Positions 11,071-63,330 of a stretch of DNA of 64,000 bases are shown here, piece by piece. The stretch is from contig NZ_VWNF01000047.1 of the NCBI RefSeq assembly GCF_008711175.1, positions 62,001 to 126,000 of the forward strand, read 5' to 3'. The DNA is from Nesterenkonia ebinurensis (GTDB lineage: Bacteria; Actinomycetota; Actinomycetes; Actinomycetales; Micrococcaceae). The position numbers and the translations under genes are program-made. Every line of letters begins with the position of its first letter. Within the stretch, counting starts at the first letter, position 1. The notes beneath the pieces are model-generated. The model did not search any database, was not told the origin of the DNA, and saw only the letters and a list, made by a program, of their open reading frames with translations.

Positions 11071-11104
11071 GGGTTCCAGACTACCTGGAGATGACGACGA
11101 CGCC

Positions 11105-11180
11105 CGACTGAGCCGGGATGAGGCTGGAAGCTGACTCCGAGTCTGCCAAGGCGACTGAGGAGCGCTAGCGAAGCGCCGGC
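11105..11180 (+). repeat. Palindromic repeat family 1, intergenic copy (opposite orientation)
   Basis: Reads CGACTGAGCCGG...GACTCCGAGTCTGCCAAGGCGACTGAGG on the plus strand and ends in an AGCGCTAGCGAAGCGCC hairpin. It matches the copies inside the carboxylase genes, which read on the minus strand. Lies between the DUF3499 and Trm112-like genes. Confidence 0.65.
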
Positions 11181-30892: not shown

Positions 30893-30970
30893 GTGGCGCG
30901 CTCACGCGCGCCTACCCTCAATCGGCTCGGAAGACTCTGAGGCAGCTCCGGTCTTCTCCTGAGTCAATCG
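30893..30970 (-). repeat. Palindromic repeat family 1, copy forming the MaoC C-terminus
   Basis: Minus strand begins CGATTGACTCAGGAG and contains GAGTCTTCCGAG; its terminal hairpin is a perfect GGCGCGC-TCAC-GCGCGCC stem (30895-30912). It encodes RLTQEKTGAASESSEPIEG and the stop codon of the MaoC gene. Confidence 0.75.
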
Positions 30971-31477
30971 GGCACCGTTGTCGTGGTGGTCTTTCATCCA
31001 CAACATCACATTCCGGGTACACTGCGCCACTACAGTGCCCTGCTGGTTGCGCCCGGTGTGCTTGATGGTGACGATCCCCTGCCCCGGCCGGGAGGCGGAC
31101 TCCCGCTTGGCCAGGATCTCCGACTCTGAGTACAGGGTGTCGCCATGGTAGAGCGGGTGCGGGAAGTTCACCGACCCGAAGCCCAGGTTGGCCACGATGG
31201 TGCCCTGGGTCAGCTGTGCCACCGAGGCGCCCACCAGAGTGGCCAGGGTGAACATGGAGTTCACCAGCGGCTGGCCGAAAGGCTGATCGGCTGCCCAGTG
31301 CGCATCCAGGTGCAGGGACTGGGTGTTCATGGTCAGGGTGGTGAACAGTACGTTGTCGGCCTCAGTGACGGTGCGCCCGGGGGCGTGCTTGAACACGGTG
31401 CCGACCTCGAGCTCATCGAAGTACAGTCCGCGCTGTTGGATGACCCTATGCGCGTTCTGCGGCTGGTTGTCAGTCAT
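30902..31477 (-). CDS. MaoC family hot-dog dehydratase
   Basis: A 191-aa MaoC-like protein, expected to hydrate an enoyl-CoA intermediate: GLYFDELEVGTVFKHAPGRTVTEADNVLF, MNTQSLHLDAHWAADQPFGQPLVNSMFTL with the catalytic Asp/His region, and FGSVNFPHPLYHGDTLYSESEI. The hot-dog domain ends near residue 166 (NVMLWMKDHHDNG); the last 22 residues, including the stop, come from a family-1 repeat. It lies 2 nt behind the acyl-CoA dehydrogenase gene. Confidence 0.9.
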   Translation of the reverse strand: MTDNQPQNAHRVIQQRGLYFDELEVGTVFKHAPGRTVTEADNVLFTTLTMNTQSLHLDAHWAADQPFGQPLVNSMFTLATLVGASVAQLTQGTIVANLGFGSVNFPHPLYHGDTLYSESEILAKRESASRPGQGIVTIKHTGRNQQGTVVAQCTRNVMLWMKDHHDNGARLTQEKTGAASESSEPIEGRRA

Positions 31478-31479
31478 GA

Positions 31480-32643
31480 TCAGTCCAGCCCCAGGGAGCG
31501 TGCGATGAGCATCAGCTGGACTTCGGTGGTGCCCTCACCGACCTCCAGGATCTTGGAGTCGCGGTAGTGGCGGGCCACGGTGTACTCGTTGATGAATCCG
31601 TAGCCGCCGAAGATCTGGGTGGCGTCGCGGGCGTTGTCCATGGCGGCCTCCCCGGCCACCAGCTTGGCGATAGAGGCCTGGGTCTTGAACGGTTTGCCCG
31701 CCGCTATCAACTGGGCCGCTTGGTAGTAGGCCAGCCGGGCGGTATGCGCCCGGGCCTGCATACGGGCGATCTTGAAGCTGATGCCCTGGTAGCTGCTGAT
31801 CGGGGAGCCGAAGGTCTTACGCTCCTTGGCGTACCGCACCGCCTGATCCACGCAGCCCTGCGCAGCCCCGGTAGCCAGGGCCGCGATGGCCACCCTGCCC
31901 TCATCCAAAATGCCCAGAAAATTGGCGTAGCCGCGGCCCCGCTCGCCCAGCAGGTGTTCCTGAGGCACCCGAGCCTCGGTAAAGCTCAGCGGGTGAGTGT
32001 CAGAGGCGTTCCAGCCGACTTTGTCATAGCCTGCGCCCACCGCGAACCCCGGGGTGCCACTGGGCACAATAATCGTGGAGATCTCCTTTGTGGTGGACCC
32101 GTCCGTTGCCTTGCTGGTGCCGGTGACCGCGGTGACGGTGACCAGGGAGGTGATGTCGGTGCCGGAATTGGTGATGAATTCCTTGGTGCCATCGATCACC
32201 CATGTCCCGTCCACCAGCTTGGCGGTGGTCCTGGTCCCTGAGGCGTCTGAGCCGGCGTCGGACTCAGTGAGCCCGAACCCGGCCAATCGCTTGGCTGAGA
32301 GCAGGTCCGGCAGCCACTTCTGCTTCTGCTCTTCAGTCCCATAACGGTAGATGGGCATCGCGCCCAGCCCCACCCCGGCCTCCAGGGTGATCGCCACCGA
32401 CTGGTCGACCTTGGCGATCTCTTCCAAGGCCAGGCAGAAGGCCAGGTAGTCCCCGCCCTCTCCTCCGTACTCCTCGTCGAAGGGCAGGCCGAACAGGCCC
32501 ATACTGCCCATCTGGGCGATGATCTCGTAGGGGAAGCTGTGCTCGGCGTCGTGCTTGGCCGAGACCGGGGCGATCACCTGTTCAGCGAACTCGCGGACCG
32601 ATTCAGCCAGTGCCTGGTGCTCTTCGGATAGCAGCGTGGTCAT
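31480..32643 (-). CDS. Acyl-CoA dehydrogenase
   Basis: A 387-aa FAD-dependent acyl-CoA dehydrogenase. Seen: MGLFGLPFDEEYGGEGGDYLAFCLALEEI, the signature GFGLTESDAGSDASGT, SFTEARVPQEHLLGERGRGYANFLGILDEGRVAIAA, and the C-terminal FGGYGFINEYTVARHYRDSKI with the usual catalytic-acid region. Context with an acyl-CoA carboxylase and BkdABC suggests isovaleryl- or a similar branched acyl-CoA as substrate. Its ATG shares one base with the stop of the carboxylase alpha gene. Confidence 0.94.
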   Translation of the reverse strand: MTTLLSEEHQALAESVREFAEQVIAPVSAKHDAEHSFPYEIIAQMGSMGLFGLPFDEEYGGEGGDYLAFCLALEEIAKVDQSVAITLEAGVGLGAMPIYRYGTEEQKQKWLPDLLSAKRLAGFGLTESDAGSDASGTRTTAKLVDGTWVIDGTKEFITNSGTDITSLVTVTAVTGTSKATDGSTTKEISTIIVPSGTPGFAVGAGYDKVGWNASDTHPLSFTEARVPQEHLLGERGRGYANFLGILDEGRVAIAALATGAAQGCVDQAVRYAKERKTFGSPISSYQGISFKIARMQARAHTARLAYYQAAQLIAAGKPFKTQASIAKLVAGEAAMDNARDATQIFGGYGFINEYTVARHYRDSKILEVGEGTTEVQLMLIARSLGLD

Positions 32644-34919
32644 CAGATGTCCTTACTCTCGGGTTCTTCAGCGTCAGCCTCTACAGCGGCGAGCACCTGG
32701 CCCAGCTTCACGGTCTGGCCCTCGGTCACGTGGATCCGTGCTGTGCCGCCCAGCGGTGCGGGGAGCTGGTGCTCCATCTTCATCGCTTCAATCGTGACCA
32801 GCACCTGCCCGGCGATGACTGCAGAACCGCCGACGACGCCCACACTTACCACGGTGCCTGGCATCGGCGCGGTGAGCTCTGGTGCAGCCTCAGTGTGCTC
32901 GGCGTCAATCTGGCTAAGGTGGCGCAGCACCTGGGCCTGGTGGTCCAGCACGGTGAACGCCCCAGCGTAGTCCTGGGTGTGGATCCAGACCTCAGCGCCT
33001 TCCCGCGAGGACGAAGCCACCGCACTGAACACATTCTCCCCTGAGCAGATCGGGTCCTCCACGGTCACGGTGAAGGGTTCCGCCTCCGGGGCAGCCCCGG
33101 CGGGAATGACCTGATACCGGGCGGGGACGGCCTGGCCGATTCGCCAGCCGTCAAGACGCCAGGACTCGGGGGGACCGTGGGGATCTTGAGGTGCAGTGGC
33201 CGGGATCTGCCTGAGGTGGCCCGCACGGCTTCGAGATCCGCGCAGGATCTGCCCGCCGAGGGGACTAGCACTGATCACTGCGATTTGAGCATGATGCGGC
33301 TTGGGGGCCGGGAATTCCATCTCGGGCAGCCTGCGCTCAATGAGGGTGGTGTCCATCTGCCCGGCCCGCACCTGGGGGTCGGCAGCCAACAGCTTGAGGA
33401 AGCTGATGTTGGTGGTCACCCCGAGGATCACGGTCTCGCCCAGGGCCTGTTCCAGGCGGGCGAAGGCCTGCTCCCGGTCGGCCCCGGTAGCGATGATCTT
33501 GGCCAACATGGGGTCATAGCCGGTGCCGATTTCCTGCCCGTGCTCAATCCCGGAGTCGATGCGAATGCCTGTACCTTCCGGCTCGCGGTAGTGCAGGATC
33601 TTTCCGGTGCTGGGCATGAAACCGGCACCGGGATCCTCAGCATAGACCCTGGCCTCCACCGAGTGACCGGTGAGGGCCACGTCGCCTCGCTCATGCTTCT
33701 CAATCGCCTCGGAAGAGCCGGAGCCAGCTCCGGGCTTGGCTCGGCTCAATCGGGTCTCGTTCTGGCTCACCTCCAGTGACAGTCCAGCGGCGATCCGGAT
33801 CTGCTGGGCCACCAAGTCGATTCCGGTGATCTGCTCAGTCACCGGGTGTTCCACCTGCAGCCGGGTGTTCATCTCCATGAAGTAGAACGTCTCCGGAGCA
33901 TCTGCGGGCACCAGGAACTCCACGGTGCCAGCACCCCGGTAGTCCACGCTGCGCGCAGTCTCGCAGGCCGCAGCTCCGATCCGGGCCCGGGTGGCTTCGT
34001 CCAGCAGCACAGAGGGCGCTTCCTCAATGACCTTCTGGTGGCGGCGTTGCAGGGAGCATTCCCGCTCCCCCAGATGGATCACATTGCCATGGGCATCGGC
34101 GAGGATCTGCACCTCGATATGCCTCGGTGAGCGGATGAGCTGCTCGATGAGCAGGGTGTCATCGCCGAAAGCCGCCTTGGCCACCCGTCGGGCGGTCCTC
34201 AGAGTCTCGGGCAGTGCCTCCGGTGCCTCCACCACGTGCATGCCTTTGCCCCCGCCGCCGGCTGAGGGTTTGATCAGCACCGGGTAGGTCATCCCCTGGG
34301 CTGCGACGATGAGCTGCTCGTCGCTCAGTCCTGGCTCGCTGATGCCCTCCACCAGCGGCACTCCTGCGGCGGCCACATGGTTCTTGGCCCGGATCTTATC
34401 CCCCATCACCTCCAGGGCATGAGGATCTGGTCCGATGAAGGTGATACCGGCCTCAGCGCAGGCACGGGCGAAGGCCGGGTTCTCAGAGAGGAACCCGTAG
34501 CCGGGATGAATGGCCTCAGCCCCGGTCTGCTGGGCAGCGCCGATGATCGCCTCAATATCCAGGTAGGCCCTGGACGCGGCCCGCACTGATTCCCTCGAAT
34601 CTGCACCGGTGCCAGACGCCAGAGTCCCCAACGCCCCGGCCGGGCCGATGCAGACCGCCAGGTCGGCCTCCTGCACATGCGGCCCGCGGTCGCCTTCAGC
34701 ATAGACCGCCGCCGATCGGATGCCCAGTGCACGCAGGGTGCGGATCACCCGGCGGGCGATCTCACCGCGATTAGCAACGAGAACTGTAGAGAACATTCCC
34801 CTCACATCCTGAACAGAACGAACCGTGCTGGTCCCGGCGGCGGGCGCATGTCCCGCCGCCTCTCGGCCGGTTGCAGCGGCGCCGGCCTTCGCGCCTAAAG
34901 ACGAAACCATGTCCATCAC
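32643..34919 (-). CDS. Acyl-CoA carboxylase alpha chain (biotin carboxylase + biotin carrier), 3-methylcrotonyl-CoA type
   Basis: A 758-aa subunit. The biotin carboxylase domain starts at [17 protein letters not shown] (residue 42) and has [14 protein letters not shown] and [12 protein letters not shown]; the biotinyl Lys is in [10 protein letters not shown] near the C-terminus. Two repeat-derived additions are visible. Residues 1-41 are encoded by a family-2 repeat plus a duplicated junction (34802-34930). A 27-residue insert, [20 protein letters not shown] and beyond, splits LSLEVSQ from [16 protein letters not shown] and is a family-1 repeat. The GTG at 34919 overlaps the beta-chain stop; the internal ATG at 34796 is the ancestral start. 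Confidence 0.95.
33676..33752 (-). repeat. Palindromic repeat family 1, in-frame insert in acyl-CoA carboxylase alpha
   Basis: Minus strand begins CGATTGAGCCGAG, contains the perfect hairpin CCGGAGC-TG-GCTCCGG and ends near a GCGACGTGGC palindrome. It adds about 26 codons to a conserved stretch of the biotin carboxylase without breaking the frame. Confidence 0.85.
34817..34915 (-). repeat. Palindromic repeat family 2, copy flanked by a 15-bp direct repeat
   Basis: Minus strand contains TTTAGGCGCGAAGGCC, hairpin GGCCGG...CCGGCC and GGCCGAGAGGCGGCG. The 15-mer TCACATCCTGAACAG occurs exactly at 34802-34816 and 34916-34930 on the plus strand, bracketing the element. Confidence 0.8.
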
Positions 34920-36598
34920 ATCCTGAACAGCCCGAAGCTGGTGTCCGGCAGTGGGGATCGGGAGCAGGTTTCCAGGGCCATACCAAGAACCCGGCGGGTG
35001 TCAGCCGGGTCGATGATCCCGTCGTCCCAGAGCCGGGCGGTGGAGTAGTAGGGCTGGCCCTGCGCCTCGTACTTCTCACGGATCGGCGCTTTGAAGTTCT
35101 CTTCCTCCTCAGTCGGCCACTCCTCATCGGCGGCTTCCAACTGATCCCGTTTGACTGTGGCCAGCACGGAGGCTGCCTGGTTCCCGCCCATCACCGAGAT
35201 CCGGGCATTGGGCCACATGAACAGGAAGCGGGGTGAGTAGGCACGCCCGCACATGGAGTAGTTCCCCGCACCAAAAGAGCCGCCGATGATCACGGTCAGC
35301 TTAGGCACCCGGGTACTGGCCACCGCGGTGACCATCTTGGCCCCGTGCTTGGCGATCCCGCCGGCCTCATAGTCCCGGCCCACCATGAAGCCTGAGATGT
35401 TCTGCAGGAAAAGCAGCGGGATACCACGCTGGTCGCAGAGCTCAATGAAGTGGGATCCCTTCAGCGATGACTCGGAGAACAGGATGCCGTTATTGGCCAC
35501 AATCCCCACCGGGTGGCCGTCGATATGGGCGAATCCGGTGACCAGTGTGGTGCCGTAGTCGGGTTTGAACTCGTGGAAGGCGCTGTCGTCCACAATGCGG
35601 GCGATCACCTCGCGGACCTCGAAGGGCTGATTCACATCCGGGGGGATGATCCCGTAGAGCTCCTGGGCATCCTGCCGCGGAGGTACGGGGACCTGCACCG
35701 TCCAGGCCCGGGGCTCAGGTGCCGGCAGGGTGGCCACAATATCGCGGATGATCTGCAGGGCATGGTCGTCATTCTCTGCAATGTGGTCAGCCACCCCAGA
35801 CTCCGCGGTGTGCACCTTCGCCCCGCCCAGCTCCTCTGCGGTGACCTCCTCCCCGGTGGCGGCCTTCACCAGGGGTGGACCGCCTAGGAAGATGGTGCCC
35901 TGGTTGCGCACGATGACGCATTCATCGCTCATCGCCGGCACATAGGCACCGCCTGCGGTGCAGGAGCCGAGCACTGCCGCGACCTGCGGGATCTTTTTGG
36001 CCGAAAGATTCGCCTGGTTGTAGAAGATCCGACCGAAGTGGTCCTTATCTGGGAACACCTCGTCCTGCATGGGCAGGAAGGCCCCGCCGGAGTCCACCAG
36101 GTAGATGCAGGGCAGTCGGTTGGCCTCAGCGATCTCCTGGGCACGCAGATGCTTTTTCACGGTCATCGGGAAGTATGTGCCGCCTTTGACCGTGGAGTCG
36201 TTGCACACCACCATGACCTGTCTACCGTGCACCAGCCCGATCCCGGTGATGATCCCGGTCCCGGGGGCGACGTCGCTTCGCTCACGCCCCTCAGCCGCCT
36301 CGGAAGACTCGGAGCCGGCTCCAGGCCTCTCTCGGCTCAATCGGGCGTCATCATAGAGCCCATGGGCCGCCAGGGCACCGATCTCCAGGAAGGGGCTCCC
36401 CTCATCCAGCAGCCGGTTGACCCGTTGACGCGGCAGCAGCCTGCCACGGTCCAGATGACGGCGCCGCGAGCGCTCCGGTCCGCCCAGGGCCGCCCTGGTG
36501 AGGTGCTCACGCAACTGCCCGGCCAGCTGCCGGTTGTGCCGGTCATTGGCTTCGAAGTCCTGGGACTGGGTGTCAATCACACTGTTGAGCGACTGCAC
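34916..36598 (-). CDS. Acyl-CoA carboxylase beta chain (carboxyltransferase), 3-methylcrotonyl-CoA type
   Basis: A 560-aa carboxyltransferase that moves CO2 from biotin to the acyl-CoA. Seen: [69 protein letters not shown] and [15 protein letters not shown], typical of methylcrotonyl/geranyl-type beta chains. After AAHGLYDD, about 26 residues starting [19 protein letters not shown] interrupt the family sequence before [11 protein letters not shown]: a family-1 repeat. The GTG at 36598 follows AGGAAGG. Lies 70 nt behind the E2 gene. Confidence 0.95.
36267..36343 (-). repeat. Palindromic repeat family 1, in-frame insert in acyl-CoA carboxylase beta
   Basis: Minus strand begins CGATTGAGCCGAGAG, holds the perfect palindrome GGAGCCGGCTCC and GAGTCTTCCGAG, and ends in GCGACGTCGC, a 10-bp perfect palindrome. 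Same reading frame (RLSR...) as the copy in the alpha chain. Confidence 0.85.
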
Positions 36599-36668: not shown

Positions 36669-38066
36669 TCAGAGCAGCATCACCTTGGGATCGGCGAGCG
36701 CCCGGCCGATATCGCTGAGGAACAGGGCCATCTCCTTGCCGTCCAGGATGCGGTGGTCTGCTGACACTGCCAGGGTGGTCACCTGGCGCAACGCGATCTG
36801 GTCCTGGTGCTCCCAGGGGATTCTGCGGATCCGTCCGAAGGCCACGATCGCGGACTCTCCCGGGTTGAGGATCGGGGTGCCGCTGTCTACGCCGAAGACC
36901 CCCACATTGGTGATGGTCAGGGTGCCGTCCTTCATCTCTGCAGGTGTTGTCTTTCCCTCTCTGGCGCGTTCGGTCAGCGCGGCCAGGGCCTCGGCCAGCT
37001 GGACCAGGGACATCTGCTGAGCGCTCTTGATGTTCGGCACGATCAGCCCGCGCTCGGTGGCTGCGGCAATACCCAGGTTCACCTCCGGGGAGAGGATGAT
37101 CTGCTCCTCGGTGAATCTGCCGTTGACCATCGGATTGCGCCCGACTGCCCAGCAGACCGCCCGGGCCAGCAGCAGCATCGGGGTGATCTTCACATGGGCC
37201 AGGACGGGTTCCTGTTTGAGCTCGGCGAGGAACTCGAGGCTTTCGGTGACGTCCACGTCCAAGAAGACGGTGACGTGCGGGGCAGTGAAGGCGGAGGAGA
37301 CCATGGCTGCGGCAGTGGCCTTGCGCACTCCGGCCACCGGGATCCGGGTCTCCTCCTTAGTCTGACTGGTCTGGGCGCTGCTGGTGGGCTGGGCAGTGGC
37401 AGGGACCTGTTGGGCGGGCTGCCGCCGCTGATGGTAGTCCAGGAGGTCCTGGCGGGTGACGTTGCCGCGCAGGCCGGTGGGCGGGACCTCACGCAGATCG
37501 ATCCCCAGATCCTTGGCCAGTTTCCGCACCGGCGGGGAGGCCAGGGCCGGGCCGGACCGGGCACCCGTCTCTGCGCCGGGCCGGTCATGATCAGCACGTC
37601 CGGCGGGGCCGGGTGAAGAATCGGGCTCGCTGGGAGTCTGCCGAGGTGGTTGAGGCTCGCGCCCCCTGCGCCGCCGGGCACGACGCCGCTCAGCCGAGGC
37701 TCCGTAGCCCACCAGGGTGTTGCCGGTCTTCTCCTCCCCTTGCTGCTCCTGGGCGGGGGTCTCGGCACTGGTGCCGTCCTCCTGAGGGGGTGCCGCGTCG
37801 TCGTTCGCTCCCTCACCGGCGAACCGGACGATGGGGGTACCCACCTGCACCGTCTGGCCCGCTTCGGCCAGCAGAGCTTCAATGACCCCGGCCTGCGGGC
37901 TGGGCAGCTCCACCAGGGCCTTGGCGGTCTCGATCTCCACCAACACCTGGTTGACCGTCACGGTGTCGCCTACGGCGACCTTCCAGCTGGCGATATCGGC
38001 CTCGGTGAGTCCCTCCCCCACATCAGGGAGCTTGAACTCGGCAGCCTCAGTGGGTGCGGTACTCAA
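36669..38066 (-). CDS. bkdC: Branched-chain 2-oxo acid dehydrogenase E2 (dihydrolipoyl acyltransferase)
   Basis: A 465-aa E2. Domain order: lipoyl domain (residues 8-85, lipoyl Lys in EIETAKALVELP), a long Pro/Arg-rich linker, peripheral subunit-binding domain around 172-208 (ASPPVRKLAKDLGIDLREV), and the catalytic domain with VSADHRILDGKEMALFL holding the active His and Asp. Transfers the acyl group from E1 to CoA. Overlaps the E1 beta gene by 4 nt. An E3 gene is not present in the window. Confidence 0.95.
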   Translation of the reverse strand: MSTAPTEAAEFKLPDVGEGLTEADIASWKVAVGDTVTVNQVLVEIETAKALVELPSPQAGVIEALLAEAGQTVQVGTPIVRFAGEGANDDAAPPQEDGTSAETPAQEQQGEEKTGNTLVGYGASAERRRARRRRGREPQPPRQTPSEPDSSPGPAGRADHDRPGAETGARSGPALASPPVRKLAKDLGIDLREVPPTGLRGNVTRQDLLDYHQRRQPAQQVPATAQPTSSAQTSQTKEETRIPVAGVRKATAAAMVSSAFTAPHVTVFLDVDVTESLEFLAELKQEPVLAHVKITPMLLLARAVCWAVGRNPMVNGRFTEEQIILSPEVNLGIAAATERGLIVPNIKSAQQMSLVQLAEALAALTERAREGKTTPAEMKDGTLTITNVGVFGVDSGTPILNPGESAIVAFGRIRRIPWEHQDQIALRQVTTLAVSADHRILDGKEMALFLSDIGRALADPKVMLL

Positions 38067-62975: not shown

Positions 62976-63330
62976 AGTATCTCCAAACAGGGTTTCGCCG
63001 TGACGGGAAGAGAAAAGGCCCCGCAGCTGAGCAGAGGTGGGCGGCGTCGTCGTAATCTTCCTCATCTTCGGGCTCGCTCTCTTCCCCAAGCGCGAGCTCG
63101 ATGTCGAGGTCATCGACGTCGTCTGGCGAGAACCAGCGGTTCTCGCAGTCCTCAATCACCTCGGAAGACTCGAAGCAGGCTTCAGTCTCCACTCGGTTCA
63201 ATCGGACACCCCATTCCGCAGCTGCAGGACCTGATGCATCCCCGCAACGGTTCTCGGTGGGTGGTCGGTCGACCCTCTGCCAGCTGCCTGGCCAGGGACC
63301 GAACCGGCCCCCTCTGCCATGTGGCGTCAA
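62944..63330 (-). other. Open frame upstream of the PhoH-like gene, carrying a family-1 repeat
   Basis: 128 codons in a different frame from the PhoH-like gene. The family-1 repeat (63126-63205) is read as [19 protein letters not shown], the same frame as in the other genes; a very acidic stretch ([20 protein letters not shown]) follows. It could be a small gene, the relic of one, or a former N-terminal extension of the PhoH-like protein. No family recognised. Confidence 0.3.
63126..63205 (-). repeat. Palindromic repeat family 1, copy upstream of the PhoH-like gene
   Basis: Minus strand begins CGATTGAACCGAG, has hairpin GAAGC-CT-GCTTC where other copies have GGAGC/GCTCC (covariation), the common GAGTCTTCCGAG and a terminal perfect stem GCGAGAACC-AGC-GGTTCTCGC at 63126-63146. 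Confidence 0.75.

Follow-up and report, generated by a model that had tools for sequence, protein, structure and literature searches.

The window analyzed here, a stretch of 64,000 nucleotides (nt) from Nesterenkonia ebinurensis (contig NZ_VWNF01000047.1, positions 62,001 to 126,000), encodes the alpha and beta chains of an acyl-CoA carboxylase, both of which carry an in-frame insert belonging to a dispersed, palindromic repeat family. The open reading frames (ORFs) and their inserts are listed below; bit scores are those of R1, a covariance model of the repeat, and the RLSR frame is the one in which the insert encodes these residues.

32643-34919, minus strand: ORF of the acyl-CoA carboxylase alpha chain (758 aa; NCBIfam matches score below the curated cut-offs; best PDB match 9yx0, biotin carboxylase)
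33684-33758, minus strand: insert in the alpha (biotin carboxylase) chain, 75 nt, 25 residues (ETRLSR...ERG), RLSR frame; R1 match of 75.6 bits at 33689-33761
34916-36598, minus strand: ORF of the acyl-CoA carboxylase beta chain (560 aa; best PDB match 4q0g, AccD1)
36272-36346, minus strand: insert in the beta (carboxyltransferase) chain, 75 nt, 25 residues, RLSR frame; R1 match of 80.8 bits at 36280-36352

A first-pass annotation had described an insert of 77 bp (about 26 residues) in each chain. Both inserts are present, with slightly shifted borders and a length of 75 nt (25 residues); with GACG at either end, the beta insert can be placed only to within a few nt. The clean insertion anticipated on alignment with related carboxylases is observed: both inserts are missing from all 12 same-genus orthologue loci (L157-L168; alignment A4 holds nine of the 12 alpha orthologues, with L158, L163, and L166, in which a stop codon was flagged in frame, excluded), and the same holds for the best PDB matches, 9yx0 for alpha and 4q0g for beta, whose HMMER alignments break at the insert. 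The DNA of the two inserts is 83% identical over 81 nt and both belong to the same dispersed family, in agreement with the proposal that one repeat was inserted twice.

In the AlphaFold model of the alpha chain (mean predicted local distance difference test score, pLDDT, 71.0), the insert corresponds to residues 388-413, a single stretch of pLDDT <50 between a helix (369-377) and a strand (419-429), which is in line with a flexible loop. The suggestion that both inserts occupy surface loops thus holds for alpha to the extent of this low-confidence stretch in the model, and the beta model (mean pLDDT 51.6) is too poor for the position of the insert to be read. Separately, the alpha chain contains a second insert of about 20 residues (34575-34636, minus strand) that is missing from 12/12 orthologues, has no R1 match, and falls at a low-confidence stretch of the model (residues 95-108); it may be a decayed copy of the repeat or belong to another family.

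The repeat is abundant in the N. ebinurensis genome (3.74 Mb), where the genome-wide search proposed in the first-pass annotation returns 40 matches to a 111-base blastn query, and 113 matches to R1 at E ≤ 0.001 (126 at E ≤ 1). R1 was built from 44 copies (33 loci of this genome, two from the window, and nine Nesterenkonia records found by pattern), so that 35 of the 44 are copies from this genome, and many of the sequences in the model are themselves among the matches; the figure of 113 is possibly a lower bound, because 150 of 2,744 first-look candidates were scored. Chance composition as the source of the likeness is ruled out by the 113 matches together with covariation. Rfam 15 has no match in the window at the gathering score, and at E ≤ 1, across seven loci of this genome and nine others, the repeat is unmatched and only abutting tRNA or transfer-messenger RNA (tmRNA) genes are recognized. 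Searches of the open-licence PMC literature gave no description of the repeat among the papers listed.

On the sense strand of the inserts, an outer stem is followed by GATTGA, GCC, GA, G, one unpaired base, and an inner stem with its loop, and then by C, GA, GGC, GATTGA, and the outer stem. The two GATTGA boxes resemble a direct repeat yet oppose each other within the hairpin, where we infer that they could form G.A, A.G, U.U, U.U, G.A, and A.G pairs. In alignment A1, 81.3% of cells are paired (vs. 30-48% in slid controls), a level reached in 0/500 shuffles, and 20 of 22 pairs are changed on both sides. Alignment A2, with 26 sequences of which 15 are absent from A1, has 84.0% of cells paired (vs. 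35-45% in slid controls) and 16/21 pairs changed on both sides, including all six outer pairs; because 21 of its 26 sequences came from an exact-pattern scan, its conserved letters are partly a selection effect, but the covarying pairs are outside the pattern. Behind the first hairpin lies a second, of no fixed sequence or size, which measures 9 bp at the copy 63141-63213. Single copies outside the coding frames of this genome adopt the same shape in RNAfold (z −3.1, −2.7, −4.4, and −2.2; −1.4 for L267), and four copies folded as DNA give z −0.3 to −1.7. No significant decay of structure is found in in-frame copies, with inner pairs at 0.80 (n = 34) vs. 0.83 in others (n = 45; p 0.23).

Copies interrupt other genes of N. 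ebinurensis as well, and empty sites were sought in relatives (of the genomes named below, G000 is N. ebinurensis itself, G013 N. muleiensis, G003 N. alkaliphila, and G002 N. alba). Thirteen of 29 prepared segments were compared with five relatives, and 11 of the 13 were aligned (none for q59 and q91). At least one relative lacks exactly 25 residues at q0 (L212, L204), q13 (L191), the RsmB-like q64 (L195), GcvP (q9; L192), and the DapF-like q37 (L197). The alignments for IleRS (q36), TrmD (q95), ProC (q54), q61, and galactokinase (q78) are gappier, or show irregular gaps or gaps of about 26-28 residues, and are not counted as clean; neither is q24, which is ambiguous at the DNA level, and G012 has no clean gap for q64, q9, or q37. 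The copy in GcvP is common to N. ebinurensis and G013 (L187), at the same place, and is missing from G003, G006, and G020, so that it predates the split of the first two or was otherwise passed on; its sequence is 87% identical between them, compared to 91% and 89% for the flanks.

A codon model, trained on long ORFs, reads 43 of the 113 copies through in frame. Whether copies within genes keep the RLSR frame, as the first-pass annotation had asked, is answered by 28/43, the commonest class, that do so and 15 for which the coding strand is the opposite one (frames with 8, 4, and 3 copies); the other two sense frames are interrupted by TGA in the repeat consensus. An earlier, stricter classification gave 29 in-frame copies, 21 of them RLSR. 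Random positions in the same stretches (n = 2,000) are read through in 65.5% of cases (p 4e-9), and coding insertions are thus under-represented. For the analysis of ends, in which placement on both boxes failed for five of the 113 copies, type-A copies (n = 29) have GACG-like letters spaced 75 nt apart, and GACG lies within most of the empty sites compared, the RsmB-like site and one beta site being without it. These terminal letters are direct and GACG-like; miniature inverted-repeat transposable elements (MITEs) are defined by terminal inverted repeats plus a target-site duplication. Of 384 occurrences of GACGCC in 252 coding ORFs, 63% have the RLSR phase, a share that, renormalized to the four open frames, predicts about 69% RLSR, as against the observed 28/43 (p 0.62). 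A GACG-like target that is read in phase may therefore explain part of the frame bias, the tests being mixed; because the target phase fits the total and not the subtypes, the sense-frame excess is only partly explained, and selection on the peptide or strand-specific entry may account for the remainder.

Six copies in the window are clear (80.8, 75.6, 75.1, 60.0, 47.5, and 38.2 bits; the next best scores 12.7), and those outside the carboxylase genes are as follows:

11096-11169, plus strand: copy outside a clear coding frame; 60.0 bits
30907-30979, minus strand: copy at the C-terminus of a RipB/Ich-like hydratase ORF (30902-31477; family match below cut-off), whose tail (RLTQEKTGAASESSEPIEGRRA) it encodes; 47.5 bits
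37592-37664, plus strand: copy inside ORF 36669-38066 (minus strand), in the opposite orientation and in frame (frame -1) by the codon model; 38.2 bits
63141-63213, minus strand: copy outside a clear coding frame, with the 9-bp second hairpin adjoining; 75.1 bits; RNA fold z −3.1

The ORF at 36669-38066 is an E2-type acyltransferase from reading of its translation. Elsewhere in the genome, by our own reading, one unit type is nested within another, behind CCGAG, in several copies, among them C1:591907, C6:50426, C49:134026, C1:53180, and C33:328656; such composites could be those expected of a mobile element or, alternatively, could stem from one event that was amplified later. The first four of these encode CGACGAMSEATEGCPQCGQAIE-like peptides with a zinc-ribbon-like pattern (CxxC...CPxCG), perhaps as a by-product of the hairpin sequence.

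The distribution of the repeat is patchy across Actinomycetota. Within Nesterenkonia, R1 reaches E ≤ 0.001 in nine of 30 genomes, with 113, 36, 18, 2, and 2 matches in five of them and a single match in each of the other four. Sampling of the phylum, with 16 candidates scored per genome, gives matches in 3/296 genomes at E ≤ 1e-4, and the order and class samples give 3/39 and 4/40, N. ebinurensis being included each time. An exact-pattern scan of GTDB contigs returns 25 stretches, all Actinomycetota by title, that include Propionibacteriaceae, Nocardioidaceae, and Actinomyces, and the family thus exceeds the Micrococcales, the order within which it had first been considered. None of these 25 strict-pattern stretches falls outside the phylum (Rickettsiales included), where looser relatives were not sought. 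Twelve genomes reached through individual loci contain 41 (G331), 34 (N. muleiensis), 16 (N. alkaliphila), 10 (Leucobacter weissii), and 1-5 copies (the others), and tandem arrays occur with periods of about 73-102 nt. Plasmids, phages, and viral contigs have no match to one 96-base query, one 91-base query, or two strict exact patterns. G331, a Propionibacteriaceae metagenome-assembled genome (Gx481_bin45), represents a separate expansion of a divergent subtype, in which the inner GCC/GGC is swapped to GGC/GCC and the second hairpin varies in a compensatory manner (GACTC/GAGTC, GCCC/GGGC, and others).

Outside G331 and the three copy-rich Nesterenkonia genomes (G000, G013, and G003), the repeat or its array starts at the 3′ end of a tRNA or tmRNA gene, on the same strand, at 18 of 33 loci (ARAGORN), most of which were reached via pattern or model matches rather than by random draw; one G020 and one G007 copy are left out of the 33, and among the 18, L321 (tRNA-Pro) matches the inner part of the model only and the tRNA of L274 is weakly predicted. 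In Leucobacter, six of eight loci are so linked (three tRNA-Leu, Arg, Val, and tmRNA), and in the three sampled groups the tRNA link is present in three of the seven matching genomes other than N. ebinurensis (G125, G397, and G391; not G126, G337, G352, or G398). By comparison, 1/28 loci in G331 and 0/113 copies in N. ebinurensis are at such ends. ORFs at two Leucobacter copies read as ordinary cellular genes, with no integrase among them, although no family search was made. Linked loci in other actinobacteria include L269:395-461, L267, L270, L051, L037, L039, and L319. At L321 (G391), an inner GCCGAG...CCGAGGC-like hairpin without GATTGA boxes is repeated from the 3′ end of tRNA-Pro(CGG), and at L147 (G020) the repeat lies between tRNA-Leu(TAA) and an apparent second, diverged tRNA-Leu 3′ half with a TTAAAAT anticodon region. 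In N. ebinurensis, a GATTGA hairpin-like stretch outside the R1 matches (L008:2487-2539, minus strand) lies 3 nt behind tRNA-Glu(TTC).

We consider it likely, at a probability of roughly 0.77, that each carboxylase insert is a copy of a structured, palindromic, dispersed repeat, non-autonomous and mobilized in trans, of which tolerated copies are kept. A trans-acting enzyme would recognize the folded single strand and mobilize copies, which would enter at certain favored short sequences (resembling GACG in the case of the commonest type). As the clean inserts have a 3n length and an open sense frame, insertion into coding DNA would add a hydrophilic stretch to the protein; harmful insertions would be lost by selection, and tolerated ones would persist.

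Several observations weigh against this account. The helper enzyme was not found in searches of the N. ebinurensis genome for PF01797 and PF00078. Both carboxylase copies fold no better than shuffles (z 0.18 and −0.46). Exact GACG is present at both ends in only 8/29 type-A copies (left in 13, right in 20), and a target-site duplication is not supported, because end matching within a copy does not exceed that of shuffled pairs (p 0.34). The RLSR frame accounts for 6/13 type-A copies (p 0.13), compared to 22/30 of the others, and GGTGACC, a frequent left flank of copies of another type, predicts the RLSR phase in only 9%. Finally, very recent movement is not evident, the best pairwise identity among the 79 copies with a 73-nt match being 93.2%.

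The alternatives differ in how, or whether, copies move. Palindrome-associated elements of the IS200/IS605 type, and repetitive extragenic palindromic (REP) sequences mobilized by REP-associated tyrosine transposases (RAYTs), would look similar through hairpin recognition and a retained short target. In single-strand transposition of this kind, a Y1 (HUH) transposase would cut the folded strand, the short target would stay at the left end, and the element would end in the same letters. Such a route would fit the GACG-like letters seen at the ends and within the majority of the empty sites compared, and also the folded hairpins, in which the outer stem, including the end letters, could serve as guide pairing; but the Y1 transposase family PF01797 is absent from all three copy-rich genomes and present in only one of the 30 Nesterenkonia genomes (G009), which holds no copies. 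A lost enzyme or another HUH family could reconcile these data, and we regard this route as possible but doubtful. RNA-mediated copying, akin to a bacterial short interspersed nuclear element (SINE), in which a transcript of the unit (made, for instance, downstream of a tRNA or tmRNA) would be reverse-transcribed and then inserted, is decidedly unlikely: the 18/33 loci at tRNA or tmRNA 3′ ends, the sense-strand excess in genes (28/43), which is only partly due to target phase, and the RNA folds of non-coding copies, which beat shuffles, would fit it, but reverse transcriptase PF00078 is absent from N. ebinurensis, the genome richest in copies, in which no copy (0/113) is at a tRNA 3′ end. PF00078 is present in six of the 30 genomes (G003, G013, G020, G012, G016, and G026).

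In many genera the repeat is found at tRNA and tmRNA 3′ ends, and this, together with its strong covariation, could also indicate that it is fundamentally a functional RNA (a tRNA or tmRNA trailer or terminator) that spread secondarily. This seems unlikely, as there are ≤10 copies per such genome, so that most tRNA genes cannot carry one, the linked tRNAs appear to vary between species, and very few of the copies examined in the richest genomes adjoin a tRNA. That the insert was selected for in the carboxylase, such as for a contact between the alpha and beta chains, is very improbable. The same peptide is in both chains and in-frame copies favor the RLSR frame, but this peptide is found in many unrelated proteins, and in GcvP, the sole shared insertion compared, the insert (87%) shows no higher conservation than the flanking sequence (91% and 89%). 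From 43 in-frame copies and an assumed ~3,400 genes, we estimate that ~0.5 neighbouring-gene coincidences are expected by chance, and the window has copies in other genes too (the hydratase and acyltransferase ORFs); the double hit on one carboxylase is therefore probably chance, and the gene pair is probably not special. We infer no function for the inserts in the carboxylase. More tentatively, the non-autonomous repeat favored here might constitute a distinct class of actinobacterial mobile nucleic acid, characterized by the GATTGA/GATTGA loop and its tandem G.A and U.U pairs. Its widespread home would be the 3′ ends of tRNA and tmRNA genes, from which it would have departed in some lineages to amplify into coding genes as a protein-inserting element, moved by an undescribed enzyme.

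Among known systems, the Rickettsia palindromic elements (RPEs) are families of short palindromic repeats found in frame in unrelated genes, with a conserved encoded peptide (PMC10969869; PMC3733652). The repeat described here appears to work like an RPE, as the first-pass annotation had held: it is also dispersed, palindromic, and in frame in unrelated genes (43/113), with clean gaps in orthologues. The likeness drawn is one of behavior. Its clean inserts are 75 nt (25 residues), whereas RPEs are ~150 bp (PMC10969869), and it differs further in its GATTGA/GATTGA loop, second hairpin, and tRNA 3′-end sites in other genera; the copies found are from Actinomycetota. REPs, both GTAG-tagged and CGTC-tagged, are dispersed palindromes, some of them intragenic, and CGTC-tagged REPs, which have no dedicated transposase, combine an unpaired CGTC tag and a CCA-like tail with a stem of 8-9 bp that closes a loop of 4-5 nt (PMC3733652). 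The present repeat is likewise a dispersed, partly intragenic palindrome, and GACG is CGTC on the other strand; it is, however, a longer, multi-part hairpin, though GACG/CGTC is common at its ends. In contrast to RAYT-mobilized REPs, no RAYT gene (PF01797) accompanies it in G000, G013, or G003. The main text of PMC3733652 mentions earlier-described REP-like sequences of M. tuberculosis, and the word Actinobacteria is absent from it. Enterobacterial RU-type MITEs are small mobile repeats of 103-168 bp that are fused in frame with genes (PMC2759123); they share this in-frame fusion with the present repeat and differ in being longer and enterobacterial, with no GATTGA boxes noted in the parts of PMC2759123 drawn on here.

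Palindromic repeats that insert in frame into proteins are best known from Rickettsia, and REP sequences supply further intragenic cases (PMC3733652). The GATTGA repeat of N. ebinurensis, which is different from these, makes such insertions extensively in the genome of a high-GC actinobacterium. The hosts in N. ebinurensis include usually essential genes (IleRS, ProC, DapF, TrmD, and Rho, as assigned by reading translations). The covarying architecture provides a model with which the family can be searched for, and the exact placement at tRNA and tmRNA 3′ ends in other genera, together with the sense-frame excess inside genes, offers leads toward the mobilizing enzyme.

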